Shown: in pieces, positions 1,895 to 23,630 of the stretch
Layout: each line of letters starts with the position of its first letter
Position numbering within the stretch: the stretch's first letter is position 1
Origin: an uncultured Clostridia bacterium
GTDB taxonomy: Bacteria; Bacillota; Clostridia; Christensenellales; UBA1242
Reading direction: 5' to 3'
Assembly (NCBI GenBank): GCA_944380415.1
Contig: CALWHN010000004.1
Coordinates: 1-46,721, forward strand
Length of the DNA: 46,721 bases
Notes under the pieces: generated by a model
Database searches by the model: none
Told to the model about the DNA's origin: nothing
What the model saw: the letters and a program-made list of their open reading frames with translations, nothing else
Program-made: the position numbers and the translations under genes

Positions 1895-4438
1895 TTAAGG
1901 ATTTCTTCTATTTGCTAAAAATGACAACAATCTTTTAGCACTTTGTAACATTTCATCCGCATTTTCTTTAAATAAGTAATTTGCCCATATTTTATCAACT
2001 GTACGTATAATTGGATTCTTCAGTTCTACAAAACTTAAATTAGTTTTTTCCTGTTTAAGCAAATGAATAATATTATCAGGAACATTATCTAATTTTGGTA
2101 TAAATGTATTAAGAACATCTTCTTTCTCCATTTTTCGAGTACCTTCCTGATCTTTTGATGATACTTCGCAAATTAATTGATAAAAAATAGTGCTAATCCA
2201 TGTTGATAATAATAACGATATGTCTTTTGAATATGTTTCACAAACTATGAAGTTTGTCGACACACAAACCTCTTCTTCAGATAAATATACTCGACCTTCT
2301 TTTCGTAAATTTCTAGGAATTAACACTGAATTTGTAGAAAAAGTTTGACCGCTTTCTCTTTGCAAAATATTTTTTAATTGTTCAGCTGTTTTAGTAATTC
2401 TGTGTTGTCTTCCTTCTCTTGGAGTCAATTGTAAATAAGATGATATAACATCATCAACTAAATCCTGAGAATTTAAAGAAATATCTAAAAACTTTGAATC
2501 ACCACCATTAATACAAAAACTATCTAGTTTGGCATTTCTCATTCCCGGTTTCAATTTAAGCATATTTTTGTATTGATTATAAAGTTCTTCTCTAGAATCA
2601 ATAAAAATTAAATCACTGCCACCATTATTTGCCGCAACCCCTCTTTGAATATTAAAATTATATGTCGAAAGAGAAGTAAACAAAGGGGAATTTGCAAAAT
2701 TATTCTTTACAAAATTTATTCCCTCAATCATTTCACTATTTAAAAAGCGCCAGCCAGAAGCTGAATTAGAAAGTAATTCTTCTTTTGATATTGTTCGTGC
2801 TATAATTCCTGGCATTATACTTGTAAAATTCATCGGAATATCATTTTTTATTACTTGTGAAAATTTATGTATATCAATATCTACAATTTTATCATAAGAT
2901 GATATAACCTGTATTTCATTAGCTGGTCTCATTGCTTTCCCAATCATTACAAAAGTGTCTTTTGTAACACCATCAAAAATCTCATCACCTGGATAGGTGA
3001 ATATAGTATGCAACCCTAAATTATTTACTATCAACGACCTAATCGCTTGTGCCTCTTGACCTCTTGCCATCAGATGTGTTTTCGGGAATACGCATGCAAT
3101 AATTGTTCCTGGTTGAACTAAATTTGTAATTAATTCTAGAAAAACCCCTTCTAATGGCATTTGTCCTATATTAGATTTATAATTATTATTTGTTATTTCT
3201 TTCAGTTTTCGATATAATACATCTTTTCTTTGTATGCAGTTTATACCAGCCACAAATGGTGGATTCATTACAACAACTTTGACTTTTTTAAAGAAATCAA
3301 AATCCAATTCAGAAACATTTTTATTAAAAATTATGGGTGAATTCTTTTTATTTATCTGTTGTGCAAAATTCAACCCTAGTCTTAACGATAATAACTCTAA
3401 TAGTTTAGAGTTTAAATCATTTACTAATATTTGATTAGGAGCCAAATTATACATTTCAATAGCAGAAGTTATTAAGTTGCCACTACCTGCAGCGGGATCA
3501 CATATATATTCATCAGTACTTAGGTCGCCACAAAGATTCTTAGACAAAAGTGATACAAATCTAGCTAATTCCAAATCGGTCGGAACTTCTCCATCATGTT
3601 CGTGGCCCATAGATACTATTTGATGCAATAAGCCAGCAATAACATCACCTGATACATTTTGATATCCAAATTCAAATAAATTTGATAATAAATCGTTGTC
3701 AACATTTGTTGGATTTTCATAAGTGGATTCAGAAAAAGAAAAAATATCTTTAAAATTAATCCTAGAAGCCTCTTCACATATTTTCGCCACATTGTTTCTA
3801 AAAACTCTTATATCTGGAAGTTCATTTCTATTGATAAATGTAAAAGCTCCACGAATGTACTCATATAAAAGTACTGCTAAATGACTTTTCCATTTCTTAT
3901 TATTCCCTAATATCTGCTCCATATGTCGAGCAAACTCATCTAAAGTTATTAAATAGTTGTAACTATTTTTAAAAAAATCCTGAATTTTTTCTTTAAAGTA
4001 ATTTGTAAGTTTTTCTAGAAAAACATTTTTATCATCTTGAAAAAAATTACCAATAATCGCCAAACCAGGAGATAATATCTGTTGAAAAACGCGAGGTCTT
4101 AAATTATCATATCTAAAACTAAATGCTCTTTCGAGGTTTGTCAATATATAAAAAGGTTGTTCATTTTGTGAAGCATTCATTTGAACATAAGACATAGCTT
4201 GAAATTGATATCTAGCACTATGTACATCTGAAGGGGTTCTTTTAACTTCAATGACACAAAAATACTTGCCAGTTGAAATGTTTTGAATAACAAAATCCAT
4301 TTCTAAAGAACCAGTATGCTGGTGGTGAATAACCCTATATTCTTGTTCCTTATGCAATAAAATTAAAGCCTGATTTAATGCTTTCTCACAAATTGGATGG
4401 TAAACATTTACCTCTGAATCTGAATATGAAATCCACAT
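1895..4438 (-). CDS. Nuclease-N6-adenine methylase fusion (type IIG-like R-M enzyme)
   Basis: An 847-residue protein. The N-terminus carries a PD-(D/E)XK-type pattern (D48, then E64-V-K66 in CVIEVKR), suggesting a restriction nuclease domain. A helical linker follows, then an N6_Mtase (HsdM-like) domain with SAM-binding motif DPAAGSG at 314-320 and catalytic NPPF at 392-395. The last 300-400 residues would hold target recognition. This layout fits type IIG or type I-related single-chain restriction-modification enzymes. It is the last gene of a minus-strand block behind two methylases, with a 9-bp gap to the C5 methylase. It is the only nuclease candidate in the block, so it is probably the restriction enzyme. 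Substrate and cut site are unknown. Confidence 0.8.
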   Translation of the reverse strand: MWISYSDSEVNVYHPICEKALNQALILLHKEQEYRVIHHQHTGSLEMDFVIQNISTGKYFCVIEVKRTPSDVHSARYQFQAMSYVQMNASQNEQPFYILTNLERAFSFRYDNLRPRVFQQILSPGLAIIGNFFQDDKNVFLEKLTNYFKEKIQDFFKNSYNYLITLDEFARHMEQILGNNKKWKSHLAVLLYEYIRGAFTFINRNELPDIRVFRNNVAKICEEASRINFKDIFSFSESTYENPTNVDNDLLSNLFEFGYQNVSGDVIAGLLHQIVSMGHEHDGEVPTDLELARFVSLLSKNLCGDLSTDEYICDPAAGSGNLITSAIEMYNLAPNQILVNDLNSKLLELLSLRLGLNFAQQINKKNSPIIFNKNVSELDFDFFKKVKVVVMNPPFVAGINCIQRKDVLYRKLKEITNNNYKSNIGQMPLEGVFLELITNLVQPGTIIACVFPKTHLMARGQEAQAIRSLIVNNLGLHTIFTYPGDEIFDGVTKDTFVMIGKAMRPANEIQVISSYDKIVDIDIHKFSQVIKNDIPMNFTSIMPGIIARTISKEELLSNSASGWRFLNSEMIEGINFVKNNFANSPLFTSLSTYNFNIQRGVAANNGGSDLIFIDSREELYNQYKNMLKLKPGMRNAKLDSFCINGGDSKFLDISLNSQDLVDDVISSYLQLTPREGRQHRITKTAEQLKNILQRESGQTFSTNSVLIPRNLRKEGRVYLSEEEVCVSTNFIVCETYSKDISLLLSTWISTIFYQLICEVSSKDQEGTRKMEKEDVLNTFIPKLDNVPDNIIHLLKQEKTNLSFVELKNPIIRTVDKIWANYLFKENADEMLQSAKRLLSFLANRRNP

Positions 4439-4447
4439 ATATTCCTC

Positions 4448-5539
4448 CTATAAATACTTTTTCAATTCCTTTGCGATAATTTGCGCTAATAATGGGGGAA
4501 CTGCGTTACCAACAATAAGATGTTTTCCTTGTTTGCTTGTAGACCTTAAAATATAGTTATCAGGGAAAGATTGTAATCTCAAAGCCTCTCTAACTGTGAT
4601 TAATCTATTTTGCTTATAATGTATGTTGCAACCAACATTTGGTCTATTAAAATATGTGTTAATAGTATAAGCTGGTAAATCAGCTCTCATTCTTCCATAG
4701 CAAGTTGTATGTCCACCTTTTTCTTGTAATCGCTGAATTCTTTTTGAATTAACGTCTTTAGGTATATCCATGTAATTACCACCAGGTTTAACATGTTTAA
4801 TAATAAAATCATCTAATTTACTAGTCGTTGGAATGATGTGGTCAGTAACAGAACCTTTACTATTTTTTCTCATACTAACTTGATAATCATTTTGTGGTTG
4901 GCATTCATATCTTATACATGAATTTTCTATCGTGGTTGGTATAGGTAGGTCACTTAACGCTTCTTCAACGCTAATATACTTAGGATATTTAATTCCGTCC
5001 TCACAATGTGTTTGTTCTGGAAAAACAAAATCAAAATTCGAATCTTTTAACCCAACTATAATAACTCTTCTCCTTTTTTGGGGAACTCCATAATCTGCAG
5101 CATTTAACACTTTTTGACAAATTTTATATCCTATTTCTTTAAATGCCAATTTTAAATTTTCCAATATACTTTCTTTGTTCTTATTTTTAGCAGATAACAA
5201 ACCTGTAACATTTTCAAAAACAAATGCCTTTGGATTGATTTTTTTTATAATCTCAATATATTTCCAAACTAATTGTCCTCGAGAATCCTCTGTATTTCTT
5301 TTTCCAGCCAAGGAAAATGATTGACATGGTGGTCCACCTATAACTACATCGGCCTTAGGAATTTCATCAATATTAATATCATTAATGTCTTTACAGATAA
5401 TATGATTCCCAAGATTTAACCTATATGTTTCTACTGCATTAGGATCATTATCTATTGCCCAAATAATTTTATATCCGGCAGTTAAGAAACCCAAATCCAA
5501 TCCTCCTCCACCAGAGAATAGACTAACAACTTTTATCAT
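4448..5539 (-). CDS. DNA (cytosine-5) methyltransferase
   Basis: A complete 363-residue C5 methylase. Motif I is FSGGGGLDLGF, the catalytic loop is GGPPCQSF with Cys72, ENV lies at 109-111, the QKRRRVIIVG motif VIII is present, and motifs IX and X (REALRLQSFPDNY, IVGNAVPPLL) close the protein. It transfers a methyl group from SAM to cytosine in a specific DNA site. Its start overlaps the stop of the upstream methylase by four bases, so the two are probably translationally coupled. The partner restriction enzyme is presumably the fusion protein downstream. Confidence 0.95.
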   Translation of the reverse strand: MIKVVSLFSGGGGLDLGFLTAGYKIIWAIDNDPNAVETYRLNLGNHIICKDINDINIDEIPKADVVIGGPPCQSFSLAGKRNTEDSRGQLVWKYIEIIKKINPKAFVFENVTGLLSAKNKNKESILENLKLAFKEIGYKICQKVLNAADYGVPQKRRRVIIVGLKDSNFDFVFPEQTHCEDGIKYPKYISVEEALSDLPIPTTIENSCIRYECQPQNDYQVSMRKNSKGSVTDHIIPTTSKLDDFIIKHVKPGGNYMDIPKDVNSKRIQRLQEKGGHTTCYGRMRADLPAYTINTYFNRPNVGCNIHYKQNRLITVREALRLQSFPDNYILRSTSKQGKHLIVGNAVPPLLAQIIAKELKKYL

Positions 5540-6966
5540 ATTTTCTCCTCTAATCTATATTTTTTTATTGAAAAATACCCCTCGCATATAGTAGTTGAAC
5601 TTACATTTGTATATTTTGAAATAATATCTGTTATTTCATAAATAATATCTTCATTATTTGTTTTTATTAAAGATTTTGCCAATTCTTCTAATTTTTTCAT
5701 ATCCGAATTCGATTCTATCATAGGAAAAGTTAAATTTTTAATATCATAACTCTGTATTTTTAATAAACCATTACCATATTTTTTCCCAACACATTCAAGT
5801 TGATAATATGTGTAGTAATTATTGAGTAGTGCAAATAAGATATATTTATTTATTTTTGGTGTTATCACATAAAAATTATCTCGAATTACCATACTTGATT
5901 CATTTAGTATAAATTTGATGTCATTACGTATAAAGTAACTGAAAACAATCCCATCGTATTTTGTTGGTTTTATAAAAAACCATTTCTTATCATTAGATAT
6001 TATTTTATCAAATAAAGTCTTTGGTTTTTGCATGGAAATAATTTTATTTTCATAAGCATTAATATATTTTTTTGTTTCTAGATCAAATTCTTGAAGTTCA
6101 AATAAGTAATCATATTTCGAGTCTTTTATACTATAACCTTTTATTTGTTTTGGTGAACTAACAATAGGTACTAAGTTTGCTTTATTTTTAATTGGAGGGT
6201 TAATAAACATTTCATTATATCCCGTTGTTAAACCTCTTTTTATTGAAGCAATTTCAGTAAAATTTTTATTGAACTGTATGATTATTTTAGGTGGTTGGTT
6301 TCTATAATAAATTTCTTTTCCATCAAAATTAAAATTCTTAAAAAGTGTAGGCTTTTTATTTTTTGATTTTTTAATTTTTAGAATTATTACATCAACTAAT
6401 GCCTTCTGATTGAAAACATTACCTGAAATATTAATATGTTCCTCAATAAAACAATTTTTTGTAATTATCCTTTTAAAACAATCTCCGTTTTTCGCATTTA
6501 GCCAACTACTAGGGAATATAACTACTAACTCTCCATTTATTTTAAGTAATGAAATAGCTTTAATTATGAAATACATGTACAAATTGGATTTTGGAGTCAA
6601 ATCTTTAAATAGTTTATTGTTTAATAATTTTTCTTTGGTTATACCATATGTTTTTAATTCATTAATTTCTTCATGTCTAATATATGGTGGATTCATAATT
6701 ATACCATCATATTTGGACTTACAAGGCGACATTAAAAAATCCCTATTTAATAAAATTAAGTTTTTAAAATTTTTATTTGCACATTGAAAAAGATTATAAT
6801 CAATTTCGATACCAGTTATATTAGAAAACCCATTATCAATCAAAGATTTAATGAAAACCCCTTCACCAAAACATGGATCTAAAATAGGAGACTTTTTTGG
6901 AATAGAGAACAATGATGTCATATAGTTAGCAACATATTCATTTGTAAAAACTTGTCCTAAATTCAT
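5536..6966 (-). CDS. TaqI-like N6-adenine DNA methyltransferase
   Basis: A 476-residue gamma-class type II methylase. It begins with the motif X-like GQVFTNEYVANYM, followed by SAM motif I DPCFGEG (30-36), a GIEID acidic loop, and catalytic NPPY (92-95). The C-terminal half resembles the variable target-recognition region of TaqI/Eco57I-class enzymes. A very strong ribosome site (AAAGGAGGTTAAT) precedes the ATG, marking it as the first gene of the block. Together with the C5 methylase and the nuclease fusion it forms a three-gene system with two chemically different modifications. Confidence 0.88.
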   Translation of the reverse strand: MNLGQVFTNEYVANYMTSLFSIPKKSPILDPCFGEGVFIKSLIDNGFSNITGIEIDYNLFQCANKNFKNLILLNRDFLMSPCKSKYDGIIMNPPYIRHEEINELKTYGITKEKLLNNKLFKDLTPKSNLYMYFIIKAISLLKINGELVVIFPSSWLNAKNGDCFKRIITKNCFIEEHINISGNVFNQKALVDVIILKIKKSKNKKPTLFKNFNFDGKEIYYRNQPPKIIIQFNKNFTEIASIKRGLTTGYNEMFINPPIKNKANLVPIVSSPKQIKGYSIKDSKYDYLFELQEFDLETKKYINAYENKIISMQKPKTLFDKIISNDKKWFFIKPTKYDGIVFSYFIRNDIKFILNESSMVIRDNFYVITPKINKYILFALLNNYYTYYQLECVGKKYGNGLLKIQSYDIKNLTFPMIESNSDMKKLEELAKSLIKTNNEDIIYEITDIISKYTNVSSTTICEGYFSIKKYRLEEKI

Positions 6967-8084: not shown

Positions 8085-8327
8085 ATGACATTAGGCGAAG
8101 CATTTACTATTCGTTTAAACGAATTATTAAAAGAGAGAAATATTTCATTACACAAATTTTTAAAAGAAAGTTGTATTGCTAGGTCAACAATTGTGAATAT
8201 TATGAAAGGCAATACAAAATGTCCTACACTTGCAATTATTTATCAAGTTGCTGACGGTTTTGGTATGACTCCATTAGAATTTTTAGATAATGAAGTTTTT
8301 AAAAGAGATGATTTAGAATATATGTAA
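8085..8327 (+). CDS. XRE (Cro/C1)-family transcriptional regulator
   Basis: An 80-residue protein consisting almost only of a helix-turn-helix domain. RLNELLKERNISLHKFLKES is followed by the recognition-helix region IARSTIVNIMKGN and a TLAIIYQVADGFGMTPLEFL tail, the standard Cro/C1 pattern. AGAGGTG eight bases upstream serves as ribosome site. The gene is divergent from the SLOG gene and very likely binds the GTCCTAATTAGGAC palindromes, controlling both. Confidence 0.9.
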   Translation: MTLGEAFTIRLNELLKERNISLHKFLKESCIARSTIVNIMKGNTKCPTLAIIYQVADGFGMTPLEFLDNEVFKRDDLEYM

Positions 8328-8519: not shown

Positions 8520-8564
8520 TTGGTAAGGAAGGGGTCGCGGGTCCGATTCCCGCCATCAGCTCCA
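8520..8564 (+). mobile_element. Attachment site: 3' half of tRNA-Thr(GGT)
   Basis: The 45 bases fold as the 3' part of tRNA-Thr: anticodon loop TTGGTAA (8520-8526), 3' anticodon strand GGAAG, variable loop GGGTC, T stem GCGGG/CCCGC (8537-8541, 8549-8553), acceptor strand CATCAGC (8554-8560), then T and CCA. The 5' half is absent; the bases before it are AT-rich element DNA. The T loop reads TCCGATT, with C where the nearly universal T55 should be, so the copy is no longer under tRNA selection. The duplication starting at the anticodon loop is the usual product of tyrosine-recombinase integration. Confidence 0.88.
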
Positions 8565-8628: not shown

Positions 8629-9618
8629 TTAAAGAAGTTCAATCTTTTGCTCTTCACAGCTGCGCAAGGTTTCCTTGTCCCAATAGCTTGCTTGAACTTC
8701 GCCAATGTGGGCTCTTCCAAGAAGAAGCATGCAAAGCCTGCTTTGGCCAATTCCGCCCCCAATAGTTAAAGGAAGTTCGTCTGAAAGAATAGCTTTGTGG
8801 AAAGGGTAGTCAAGCCTTTCCATTTTTCCGGCTTTTTTAATTTGACTGAGAAGGCTTTCTTTGTCAACCCTAATGCCCATGCTTGAAATTTCTAGAGCTT
8901 TGTCCAGCACTTCATGATAGAAAAGCAAATCTCCGTTCAAAGCCCAATCGTCATAGTCTGGGGCTCTCAAATCATGTGGCTTTCCGTCGCTTAAATCATC
9001 TCCAATTTGCATAATGAAAACCGTTTTATATTTTTTTGTAATTTCATGTTCTCTTTCCTTATCAGAAAGTGTTGGGAACATGTCTAAAAGCTGTTGGCTG
9101 GTAATAAAATGGACATCTCTTGAAATCCTAACTCCTTCAAAGCCCTTTGCCTTTATGTGTTCGCTAGTATCAGCAACGGCTTTTACAATTTTTTCTACAG
9201 TTCTTTTTAAATATTCAAGAGTTCGGTCTTGCCTTTTTATAATTTTTTCCCAGTCCCATTGATCAACATAGACAGAGTGTGTTTCGTCAACTTTATCGTC
9301 TCTTCTTATTGCACTCATGTCTGTGTAAAGTCCTTTGTGCAAAGGGAATTTATATTTTTTTAAAGCCATTCTTTTCCACTTTGCAAGGGATTGAACAATT
9401 TCAAGTTCTTTTCCGTCCTTGGCAATGTCAAAGGAAACTGCGCGCTCTGTTCCACTTAAATCATCTTGAAGCCCACTTTCTTTTGTTACAACAATTGGGG
9501 CGGAAACACGCGTAAGGCAAAGTTCTTTTGCCAGAGCTTTTTCAAATTTATCTTTTATAAGTTTTATATATTTTTGTTTTTCAATTAAATCTATTTTTAT
9601 ATATTTTTCTCTAATCAT
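8629..9618 (-). CDS. asnA: Aspartate-ammonia ligase (asparagine synthetase A)
   Basis: A 329-residue cytosolic enzyme making L-asparagine from aspartate, ammonia and ATP. It has the full family length and class-II-synthetase-like features: SAPIVVTKESGLQDDLSGTE near the N-terminus, HSVYVDQWDWEK, SRDVHFITSQ, RAPDYDDW, and the closing GGGIGQSRLCMLLLGRAHIGEVQ. The start has a good AAGGAGATAATTTT ribosome site. The gene lies downstream of a promoter, an asparagine-rich leader peptide, alternative hairpins and an intrinsic terminator (9773-9988), so it is very probably controlled by ribosome-mediated attenuation. An 18-codon frame with a perfect ribosome site sits between the terminator and asnA. 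Confidence 0.96.
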   Translation of the reverse strand: MIREKYIKIDLIEKQKYIKLIKDKFEKALAKELCLTRVSAPIVVTKESGLQDDLSGTERAVSFDIAKDGKELEIVQSLAKWKRMALKKYKFPLHKGLYTDMSAIRRDDKVDETHSVYVDQWDWEKIIKRQDRTLEYLKRTVEKIVKAVADTSEHIKAKGFEGVRISRDVHFITSQQLLDMFPTLSDKEREHEITKKYKTVFIMQIGDDLSDGKPHDLRAPDYDDWALNGDLLFYHEVLDKALEISSMGIRVDKESLLSQIKKAGKMERLDYPFHKAILSDELPLTIGGGIGQSRLCMLLLGRAHIGEVQASYWDKETLRSCEEQKIELL

Positions 9619-9694
9619 AAAATTATCTCCTTAAATTTTTTTGCAATTTTTTACTAAATCATTTAAGGAACAAAAAATTTGCTAAAATGTTGCC

Positions 9695-9751
9695 TTAATG
9701 TTTTAAAAATTCAACTATTCCTTCGCCCGCTACGGCATTTTTCTTTTTCAT
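9695..9751 (-). CDS. 18-residue small ORF between attenuator and asnA
   Basis: ATG at 9751 follows AAGGAGGATATT, one of the best ribosome sites in the window. It encodes MKKKNAVAGEGIVEFLKH and then TAA. It begins just past the terminator T run, so it is made only when the attenuator is read through. The asnA start lies about 75 bases downstream. It might be a translated spacer, a second leader or a small regulatory protein. I recognise no family, and length alone cannot prove it is a gene; the ribosome site is the main argument. Confidence 0.55.
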   Translation of the reverse strand: MKKKNAVAGEGIVEFLKH

Positions 9752-9772
9752 AATATCCTCCTTAAAAGAAAA

Positions 9773-9916
9773 AGCACCCTCTTTAGAGGGCGCTGACCTT
9801 TTATATTAAATTAACACCCTCTTGGATTTCAAGAGAGTGTTAAGAAACAAAGCTTATTTTTCAACAACAAAATTGAAACCCATTATTTTTAATGTGTTTG
9901 AATTATTTTTGTTGTT
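9773..9916 (-). promoter_or_regulatory. Asparagine attenuator with alternative hairpins
   Basis: In minus-strand order, hairpin P1 (9916-9863) pairs AACAACAAAA, which holds two Asn codons, with TTTTGTTGTT, and has an inner 14-bp stem with two mismatches. Hairpin P2 (9843-9811) pairs TTAACACTCTCTTG with CAAGAGGGTGTTAA. The terminator (9794-9773) pairs AGCGCCCTC with GAGGGTGCT and ends in TTTTTCTTTT. Alternative pairings exist: TGGGTTTCAA (9882-9873, in P1) with TTGAAATCCA (9832-9823, top of P2), and AGAGGGTG (9822-9815, P2) with CGCCCTCT (9792-9785, terminator). Thus 1:2, 3:4 and 5:6 give termination, while 2:3 and 4:5 give read-through. Ribosomes stalled on Asn codons would break P1 and favour read-through. 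Confidence 0.82.
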
Positions 9917-9937
9917 ATTATTTAAAATGTGCTTCAT
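9854..9937 (-). CDS. Asparagine-rich leader peptide of asnA
   Basis: A 27-codon frame starting ATG at 9937 with AAGGAAAGG as ribosome site. It begins MKHILNNNNKNNSN, so 7 of 9 consecutive codons (9922-9896) are Asn (AAT, AAT, AAC, AAC, then AAT, AAT, AAC around one Lys and one Ser); an eighth Asn codon follows later. It ends in TAA at 9856-9854, 11 bases before hairpin P2. The predicted transcription start is about 17 bases upstream of the ATG, as in classical amino-acid operon leaders. An in-frame upstream ATG at 9955 lies at the transcription start and has no ribosome site. The Asn codons form one strand of hairpin P1. Confidence 0.85.
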   Translation of the reverse strand: MKHILNNNNKNNSNTLKIMGFNFVVEK

Positions 9938-9960
9938 TTCCCTTTCCTTTTTCATTTTTT

Positions 9961-9988
9961 ATTGTACCACATTTTATGAAATTGTCAA
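9961..9988 (-). promoter_or_regulatory. Promoter of the asnA leader
   Basis: On the minus strand a perfect -35 TTGACA (9988-9983) and a -10 TACAAT (9966-9961) are separated by 16 bases, placing transcription start near 9954. Confidence 0.85.
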
Positions 9989-22883: not shown

Positions 22884-23630
22884 ATGAACAAATATAAATT
22901 AGCAAAGGCACTTAACATCATAACAAATGTTTTATTTGTTTTGGTTATGGTTCTTCTTATAATTTATTTGGTCTATGGTTTTACTTCAAGGGCTCAAAAC
23001 AAAGTTCCCTCCTTTTTTGGCCAGTCATATGTTAGAATTATGAGCAATTCTATGGAGGCAAGGGGATTTGAGCAAAACGAGGTTGTAGCTATTGAAAAAG
23101 TTAATATATCTGAAATTAAAGAAGGTGATATAATTGCTTTCTATAAACGTTTTTTTAAACTTAATCTTAGCAACCCTGCTGGTGAGCAACAAGACGATAA
23201 AAAAGGAGAAAATTCTTTTGAAGACTTAAAAATTGTTTTCCATCAAGTTGGAGAAGTTTACGTTGATTCCGAAGGTCAAACCTGGTTTAAGACACACGGG
23301 TACGGGACAAGCAAAGAGGAAATAATTTACGATCCAGGTTATGTCCGTGGAGATTATGTTGTTGGAAGATATGTTGATTCTGGATTGGCTGGTTTCTTAA
23401 ATTTCCTATCTAGCACAACAGGAATTATTGTTGTTGTAATTGTTCCGTCTGCAATTGTTCTTTTCCTTCTTGCATGGGATATTATTCAAATTTCAGATCA
23501 AATGGTTAGAGTAAAAAAGCAAAATGCTGCAATTGCAGCAAAAGCAGGTTTACTTGACGATGATGACGAAGAAGAAAATATGAAACCATCTGTTGGTAGT
23601 GACCCGAAAAAAGAAAAGAAGAATAAATAA
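22884..23630 (+). CDS. sipW: SipW-like signal peptidase I (Ser-His type)
   Basis: A 248-residue S26-family membrane peptidase with an N-terminal anchor (about 10-33) and a second helix near 170-200. The catalytic Ser56 is in SNSME. Box D has His120 (IVFHQVGE) where typical bacterial enzymes have Lys, the ER/SipW-type arrangement. EIKEGDIIAFY and VRGDYVVGRYV are the other conserved boxes. The C-terminal tail is acidic then basic and presumably cytoplasmic. It follows the TasA-like gene and probably processes it. Confidence 0.88.
   Translation: MNKYKLAKALNIITNVLFVLVMVLLIIYLVYGFTSRAQNKVPSFFGQSYVRIMSNSMEARGFEQNEVVAIEKVNISEIKEGDIIAFYKRFFKLNLSNPAGEQQDDKKGENSFEDLKIVFHQVGEVYVDSEGQTWFKTHGYGTSKEEIIYDPGYVRGDYVVGRYVDSGLAGFLNFLSSTTGIIVVVIVPSAIVLFLLAWDIIQISDQMVRVKKQNAAIAAKAGLLDDDDEEENMKPSVGSDPKKEKKNK

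Follow-up and report, generated by a model that had tools for sequence, protein, structure and literature searches.

The leader upstream of asnA in this uncultured Clostridia bacterium is, we conclude with high confidence although without expression data, a ribosome-mediated transcription attenuator sensing Asn-tRNA(Asn). The window, meaning the whole stretch of 46,721 nucleotides that was analysed, carries on its minus strand, from position 9988 to 9763, a promoter, a 27-codon leader ORF and then the hairpins P1, P2 and P3, ending in an intrinsic terminator. This architecture, its conservation, the coevolution of its pairings and the genes that it precedes are read directly from sequence. Those criteria for an attenuator of this class that can be judged from sequence and computed folding were all satisfied: a translatable leader ORF with a Shine–Dalgarno (SD) sequence and a run of cognate Asn codons (at the sequence level, translation being inferred); an intrinsic terminator ahead of asnA, kept in relatives; pause, antiterminator and terminator pairings that exclude one another and are maintained by coevolution; a ribosome that favours the antiterminator when on the Asn codons and not when at the stop (in computed folding only); and downstream genes that supply the cognate amino acid or aminoacyl-tRNA (asnA, ND-AspRS, aspS, gatA and gatC).

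The coordinates of the features are collected in Table 1. The consensus promoter of the original prediction stands, with a TG before the -10 element in addition. Comparison with relatives places the leader start at 9937, behind the SD sequence GGAAAGGG, and the peptide opens with MKHILNNNNKNNSN; the start at 9955 given by the ORF finder has no counterpart in relatives. From 9922 the codons read AAT AAT AAC AAC AAA AAT AAT TCA AAC, which are the seven Asn codons in nine that had been claimed. This density is unexpected by chance in 46.7 kb, as 60 Markov-simulated sequences of that length reached at most 6 in 9. Other six-of-nine Asn runs in the window, at 23444, 25062 and 37393 on the minus strand, are not leaders and lie antisense to hydrophobic (Ile/Val-rich) segments of plus-strand ORFs.

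Table 1. Positions of the leader elements, the second short ORF and asnA in the window.
Feature	Positions	Strand	Evidence or remark
Sigma-A-type promoter, TTGACA-N16-TACAAT	9961..9988	-	11/12 consensus matches, TG before -10; similar promoter visible in L002 and L028
Leader peptide ORF, MKHILNNNNKNNSNTLKIMGFNFVVEK then stop	9854..9937	-	Alignment of start, SD and Asn run with those of relatives
Segment 1, regulatory codons (7 of 9 Asn) and 5' part of P1	9896..9922	-	Almost all relatives have 5-9 Asn in 10 codons
Hairpin P1, UUGUUGUUG arm against Asn codons	9862..9917	-	Folding; consensus helix in 20 sequences
Segment 2, antiterminator strand UGGGUUUCAA, 3' half of upper P1	9873..9882	-	Coevolution tests
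Hairpin P2 (segments 3:4)	9811..9843	-	Intrinsic terminator in relatives; T-tract decayed in window species
Segment 3, UUGAAAUCCA, partner of segment 2	9823..9832	-	0/20000 permutations, 0/500 shuffles
Hairpin P3 and T-run, terminator in window species	9763..9794	-	5' arm can pair with P2 3' arm; relay 2/20000 permutations
Second short ORF (ORF2), MKKKNAVAGEGIVEFLKH then stop	9695..9751	-	SD AAGGAGG at 9763-9757; between terminator and gene
Hairpin motif AAT-GCC-GTAGCG-GGC-GA inside ORF2	9723..9739	-	Regulon-specific; GCC/GGC invariant in 33 loci
Anti-SD-like TTCCTTAAA	9662..9670	-	Can pair with asnA SD or upstream TTAAGG; sequence reading, predicted fold; in part of relatives only
asnA Shine-Dalgarno, TTTAAGGAG	9627..9635	-	Sequence reading
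asnA, aspartate--ammonia ligase	8629..9618	-	TIGR00669, 330.6 bits, cut-off 292.8 (NCBIfam equivalog)

The leader transcript folds to -61.8 kcal/mol compared with -30.7 kcal/mol for shuffles (z = -7.9, 0/200 shuffles), and both P2 and P3 are terminator-like in the window. The two alternative pairings predicted at 10 and 8 bp both exist: the helix UGGGUUUCAA:UUGAAAUCCA indeed has 10 bp, while the one between the 3' arm of P2 and the 5' arm of P3 was computed at 10 bp rather than 8. When the transcript is folded as at the moment RNA polymerase has just completed the P2 loop, segment 3 pairs more with upstream RNA if a ribosome masks the Asn codons, as it does in 53 of 60 loci (p = 4e-10 compared with free Asn codons). 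Without a ribosome this pairing is low to moderate, and a ribosome at the leader stop lowers it again. In the window about 3.1-3.4 segment-3 pairs are expected unmasked, 9.5 with the Asn codons masked and 0.1 with the ribosome at the stop. In equilibrium folding P2 and P3 together beat the antiterminator in every state, even with P1 blocked, so the ON state must be kinetic, which folding during transcription allows.

In the proposed mechanism, ample Asn-tRNA would let the ribosome pass the Asn codons to the leader stop, where it would cover segment 2, so that P2 and P3 fold and transcription stops before asnA. When Asn-tRNA is scarce, the ribosome would stall on the Asn codons and open P1, and segment 2 could then capture segment 3 before the 3' arm of P2 has been synthesized. 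The freed P2 arm would in turn capture the 5' arm of P3, the terminator would fail and asnA would be transcribed. In relatives the same device may govern whichever enzymes for Asn or Asn-tRNA are available, that is, asnA, or ND-AspRS/AspRS and GatCA. Stalling, read-through and the response to asparagine are all inferred.

The partner of segment 2 is segment 3, part of the terminator's 5' half and loop, and changes on one side are matched by the other. Compensating changes (segment 2/segment 3) include GGGTTTCC/GGAAACCC at L038, GGATTTTC/GAAAATTC at L037, GGGTTA/TAACTC at L041, GGGTTATTT/AAATAACTC at L184 and TTTGTGAAC/GTTCACAAA at L223. The covariation test was first made with hand-chosen strands and was repeated with automatic segmentation, which gave true partners in 63 loci a mean of -8.5 kcal/mol compared with -5.69 (sd 0.24) kcal/mol for permuted ones (0/20000). 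The loci share descent, for which a subset with less than 75% identity is only a partial correction; in the 31 non-redundant loci of this subset the values were -9.98 and -6.06 kcal/mol, respectively (z = -9.3, 0/20000). On the asnA alignment, 88% of the cells of this pairing are paired, compared with 24-63% when the partner is slid, and double changes occur in 5 of 9 pairs. The 3' arm of P2 and the 5' arm of P3 also fit better than permuted arms (2/20000), which supports a putative P2-to-P3 relay disabling both terminators at once. Covariation, suggested as a check along with the original prediction, was thus found for both alternative pairings and hardly at all for the lower P1 stem, which is nearly invariant (601/20000 permutations, a weak test with arms of low complexity).

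The window belongs to a lineage of small-genome gut Clostridia, and those relatives that carry a name in the collection are uncultured ruminant-gut Clostridia. Matches to asnA were found in 34 of the 309 genomes searched of the window's family, and the same leader lies upstream of asnA in about 23 species. Where upstream DNA was available, most of these loci have such a leader, for example MKQFLNVNNNNNLN, MFRLINNNNNNNLN or MIKFLINNNNNNNNF, and alignment of the asnA upstream regions confirmed that the Asn-rich frame is kept in relatives. P1 there pairs AAC codons with the UUGUUGUUG arm. The ATGGGTTTC strand is retained inside the leader frame and beyond its stop alike, and because it is kept in both positions we infer that it acts as RNA. 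In most relatives P2 (AACACTCTCTTGAAATCCAAGAGGGTGTT and a T-run) is the terminator itself; in the window's genus its T-tract has decayed and P3 terminates, and about 10 others have tandem P2 and P3 terminators. As judged by these comparisons, the common form is a classical attenuator with a P2 terminator, and in some species P3 serves as a second terminator linked to it by the relay. The predicted arrangement of three hairpins with the last as terminator is therefore correct for the window and not for the family at large, a P3-only terminator being peculiar to the window's genus. The six-segment logic is likewise supported, in that its alternative pairings covary, and has to be refined, in that the layout is genus-specific and control extends beyond asnA.

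Not all asnA genes of the family have the leader: it is absent upstream of L040, L043, L046, L047, L069 and L070, while the Asn-rich leaders of L009 and L027 differ in sequence. At asnA loci of other families we found a single weak Asn-rich frame (L123) and otherwise none. An order-wide search with the leader model gave matches in the window's family only; the model is weak and missed known members.

A covariance model built from 20 asnA leaders and run on the 309 family genomes matched in 58 of them, many without asnA. The matches L222 and L225 were rejected as false positives. In family genomes without asnA, the leader precedes the gene for ND-AspRS (aspartate--tRNA(Asn) ligase), bacterial aspS, or gatC-gatA, that is, genes of the tRNA-dependent route to Asn-tRNA; MKRQNNNNNNNFSHH and MLSNNNNNNNNSNHM are examples of leaders before gatCA. 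By reading of the translations, the leader loci comprise about 20 ND-AspRS, 7 aspS, 15 gatC-first and 23 asnA loci. Gene identities were checked against NCBIfam on representatives only, and all three ND-AspRS proteins scanned were above the cut-off. Tests of 24 genomes, almost all of them carrying asnA, put a true AsnRS above the cut-off in 22, including the window genome (G000), and asnB in none, G000 included. With a true AsnRS and no detected asnB in the window genome, free asparagine should control charging there. Among 35 genomes whose leader stands before ND-AspRS, aspS or gatC, 11 have no AsnRS above the cut-off, some of these 11 being 97-100% complete. The common denominator of the putatively leader-controlled genes is the supply of Asn-tRNA(Asn). 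Since one device fronts two chemically different routes, via free asparagine made by AsnA and via amidation of Asp-tRNA by ND-AspRS and GatCAB, the regulated quantity appears to be Asn-tRNA, and the regulation of tRNA-dependent asparagine synthesis becomes directly testable.

Two further loci deserve mention. At L191 (G255:C19) the Asn leader and ORF2 likewise stand before the gene for a 261-aa protein that matches nothing in NCBIfam; a YbaK-like deacylase gene comes next. At L209 (G241:C77) the leader, MKLIIDCDKDDNLLTHN, is Asp-rich and not Asn-rich and lies ahead of an AspRS-like gene, possibly a switch of specificity to Asp.

The range of downstream genes bears on other explanations of the leader. 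It is very improbable that the hairpins form a leader-independent RNA switch answering a small molecule or protein, with the Asn run needed only to pair with the UUGUUGUUG arm: the 5' arm of P1 does consist of AAC repeats, but the Asn codons stay in frame with SD, start and stop despite varying AAT/AAC usage and a varying P1 arm, nearly all downstream genes concern Asn-tRNA supply, and Rfam families all fell below cut-off. Equally little can be said for a leader that senses a general slowdown of translation rather than asparagine specifically, since the run consists of Asn codons ahead of downstream genes that are not homologous and have only Asn-tRNA supply in common, even though any run of scarce codons could stall ribosomes and ermC-type leaders have been described as general-slowdown sensors (PMC2965389). 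Less probable still is that the leader encodes an Asn-rich micropeptide with a function of its own and merely lies near ordinary terminators, which the short conserved ORF with its SD might suggest, as the peptide is unconserved outside the Asn run, the GGGTTTC strand is kept whether coding or post-stop (e.g. L028 and L005) and the pairing coevolves with the terminator.

The usual Firmicutes solution for sensing tRNA charging is the T-box. That no T-box is present, as originally claimed, is true of the window locus, which has no match to RF00230 and so fails the T-box criterion, and under strict filters none was found in the whole window genome. T-boxes do occur in the family, with counts of 0-6 in its members and up to 21 in the order, and seem few in the window lineage; in G016 one lies, by coordinates, just upstream of an AspRS-like/asnS pair. 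A 2008 survey of T-boxes found none at amidotransferase genes (PMC2494555). The Rfam scan of the leader gave no leader or riboswitch family at the gathering cut-off, the best amino-acid leader match being Phe_leader with 26 bits (cut-off 55 bits), and a T-box or riboswitch identity was rejected. While the T-box riboswitch also senses tRNA charging, the Asn attenuator would do so through translation of Asn codons.

The amino-acid leader families of Rfam include the trp, his, thr, leu, ilv and phe operon attenuators. Such classical attenuators have the same logic as the Asn leader, with regulatory codons, pause hairpin 1:2, antiterminator 2:3 and terminator 3:4; the Asn leader differs in its specificity and its unrelated sequence, and some members add the second-terminator relay and a second ORF. 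Leader-peptide attenuators outside Proteobacteria, in Gram-positive bacteria, include the His leader at hisS/hisZ in bacilli (PMC2965389), the Leu-rich leader of ilv in S. aureus (PMC5794164) and the ilvB uORF with branched-chain residues in Corynebacterium (PMC10272879). They use the same mechanism, in some cases in place of T-boxes, for other amino acids and other genes. The cysS uORFC-8-2 motif of Rhodobacterales, a cognate-codon leader (PMC8632094), also sets cognate codons before a tRNA synthetase gene but concerns Cys in Alphaproteobacteria, and unlike it the Asn leader is one device for asnA and for the AspRS/GatCA transamidation route. According to the original prediction no Asn-specific ribosome-mediated attenuator is known to have been described, and we found none in the full-text literature, from which subscription journals are largely missing, or in Rfam. 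The specificity and the small regulon are new, and the class of mechanism is known and classical. If the reading is true, asparagine joins the amino acids sensed through leader translation, in a phylum for which T-boxes are the textbook answer.

The analysis also yields a regulon-specific RNA hairpin inside ORF2, a second conserved feature that was absent from the original prediction. ORF2 has a strong SD, is present at most asnA and many ND-AspRS loci and was not found at the gatC-first loci seen. At L034 and L049 (genus g12) an additional, unidentified gene stands between it and asnA, apparently within one operon. The core of ORF2 reads (A/G)A-Y-GCC-N6-8-GGC-R and keeps a constant frame behind an Asn or Asp codon, and the Y-GCC...GGC-R hairpin begins at the wobble base of that codon. 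GCC and GGC are invariant in 33 ORF2 loci, compared with 14% of Ala and 23% of Gly codons in asnA genes; the Y:R pair is T.G, C-G or T-A, with an extra GC pair in several loci. A family-wide pattern search found the motif at regulon loci and elsewhere only apparent coding coincidences. A genome-wide element was rejected, the other matches that were inspected or recognisable being GroEL-, plsX- and membrane-protein-like coding frames. So was the idea that NAVAGE is a conserved arrest peptide: its residues differ between loci (NALVGG, NAPKGS, NARWGE, NAHGGA), and GCC...GGC and Y:R are kept. A purely peptide-level motif appears unlikely.

In some species an anti-SD-like CTCCTTAAA could, by sequence reading, have two alternative partners, the asnA SD and a TTTAAGGAG where ORF2 ends. 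Anti-SD control of asnA in all species was rejected, since the element is missing in several and L044, L041 and L037 leave no room for it. ORF2 might act as an attenuator of translation, help reinitiation or affect mRNA stability, and we make no choice among these; reinitiation has been proposed as a way in which leader genes raise translation (PMC4833913). We speculate, with more doubt than conviction, that two leader ORFs act in series, the first deciding transcription and ORF2 setting downstream translation or mRNA stability in response to Asn/Asp-tRNA, which in some species would work by exposing or masking the asnA SD. Such a two-stage tRNA-sensing attenuator of transcription and translation would, if true, be new.

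Elsewhere in the window, at 8534-8560 on the plus strand, there is a sequence resembling the 3' half of a tRNA without a 5' half, in single copy in the assembly, at which ARAGORN called no tRNA. It adjoins apparent DNA methyltransferase genes (1895-6966) and a small HTH-like ORF (8085-8327), and this 1-8.5 kb island with its tRNA half looks like the edge of an integrated element.
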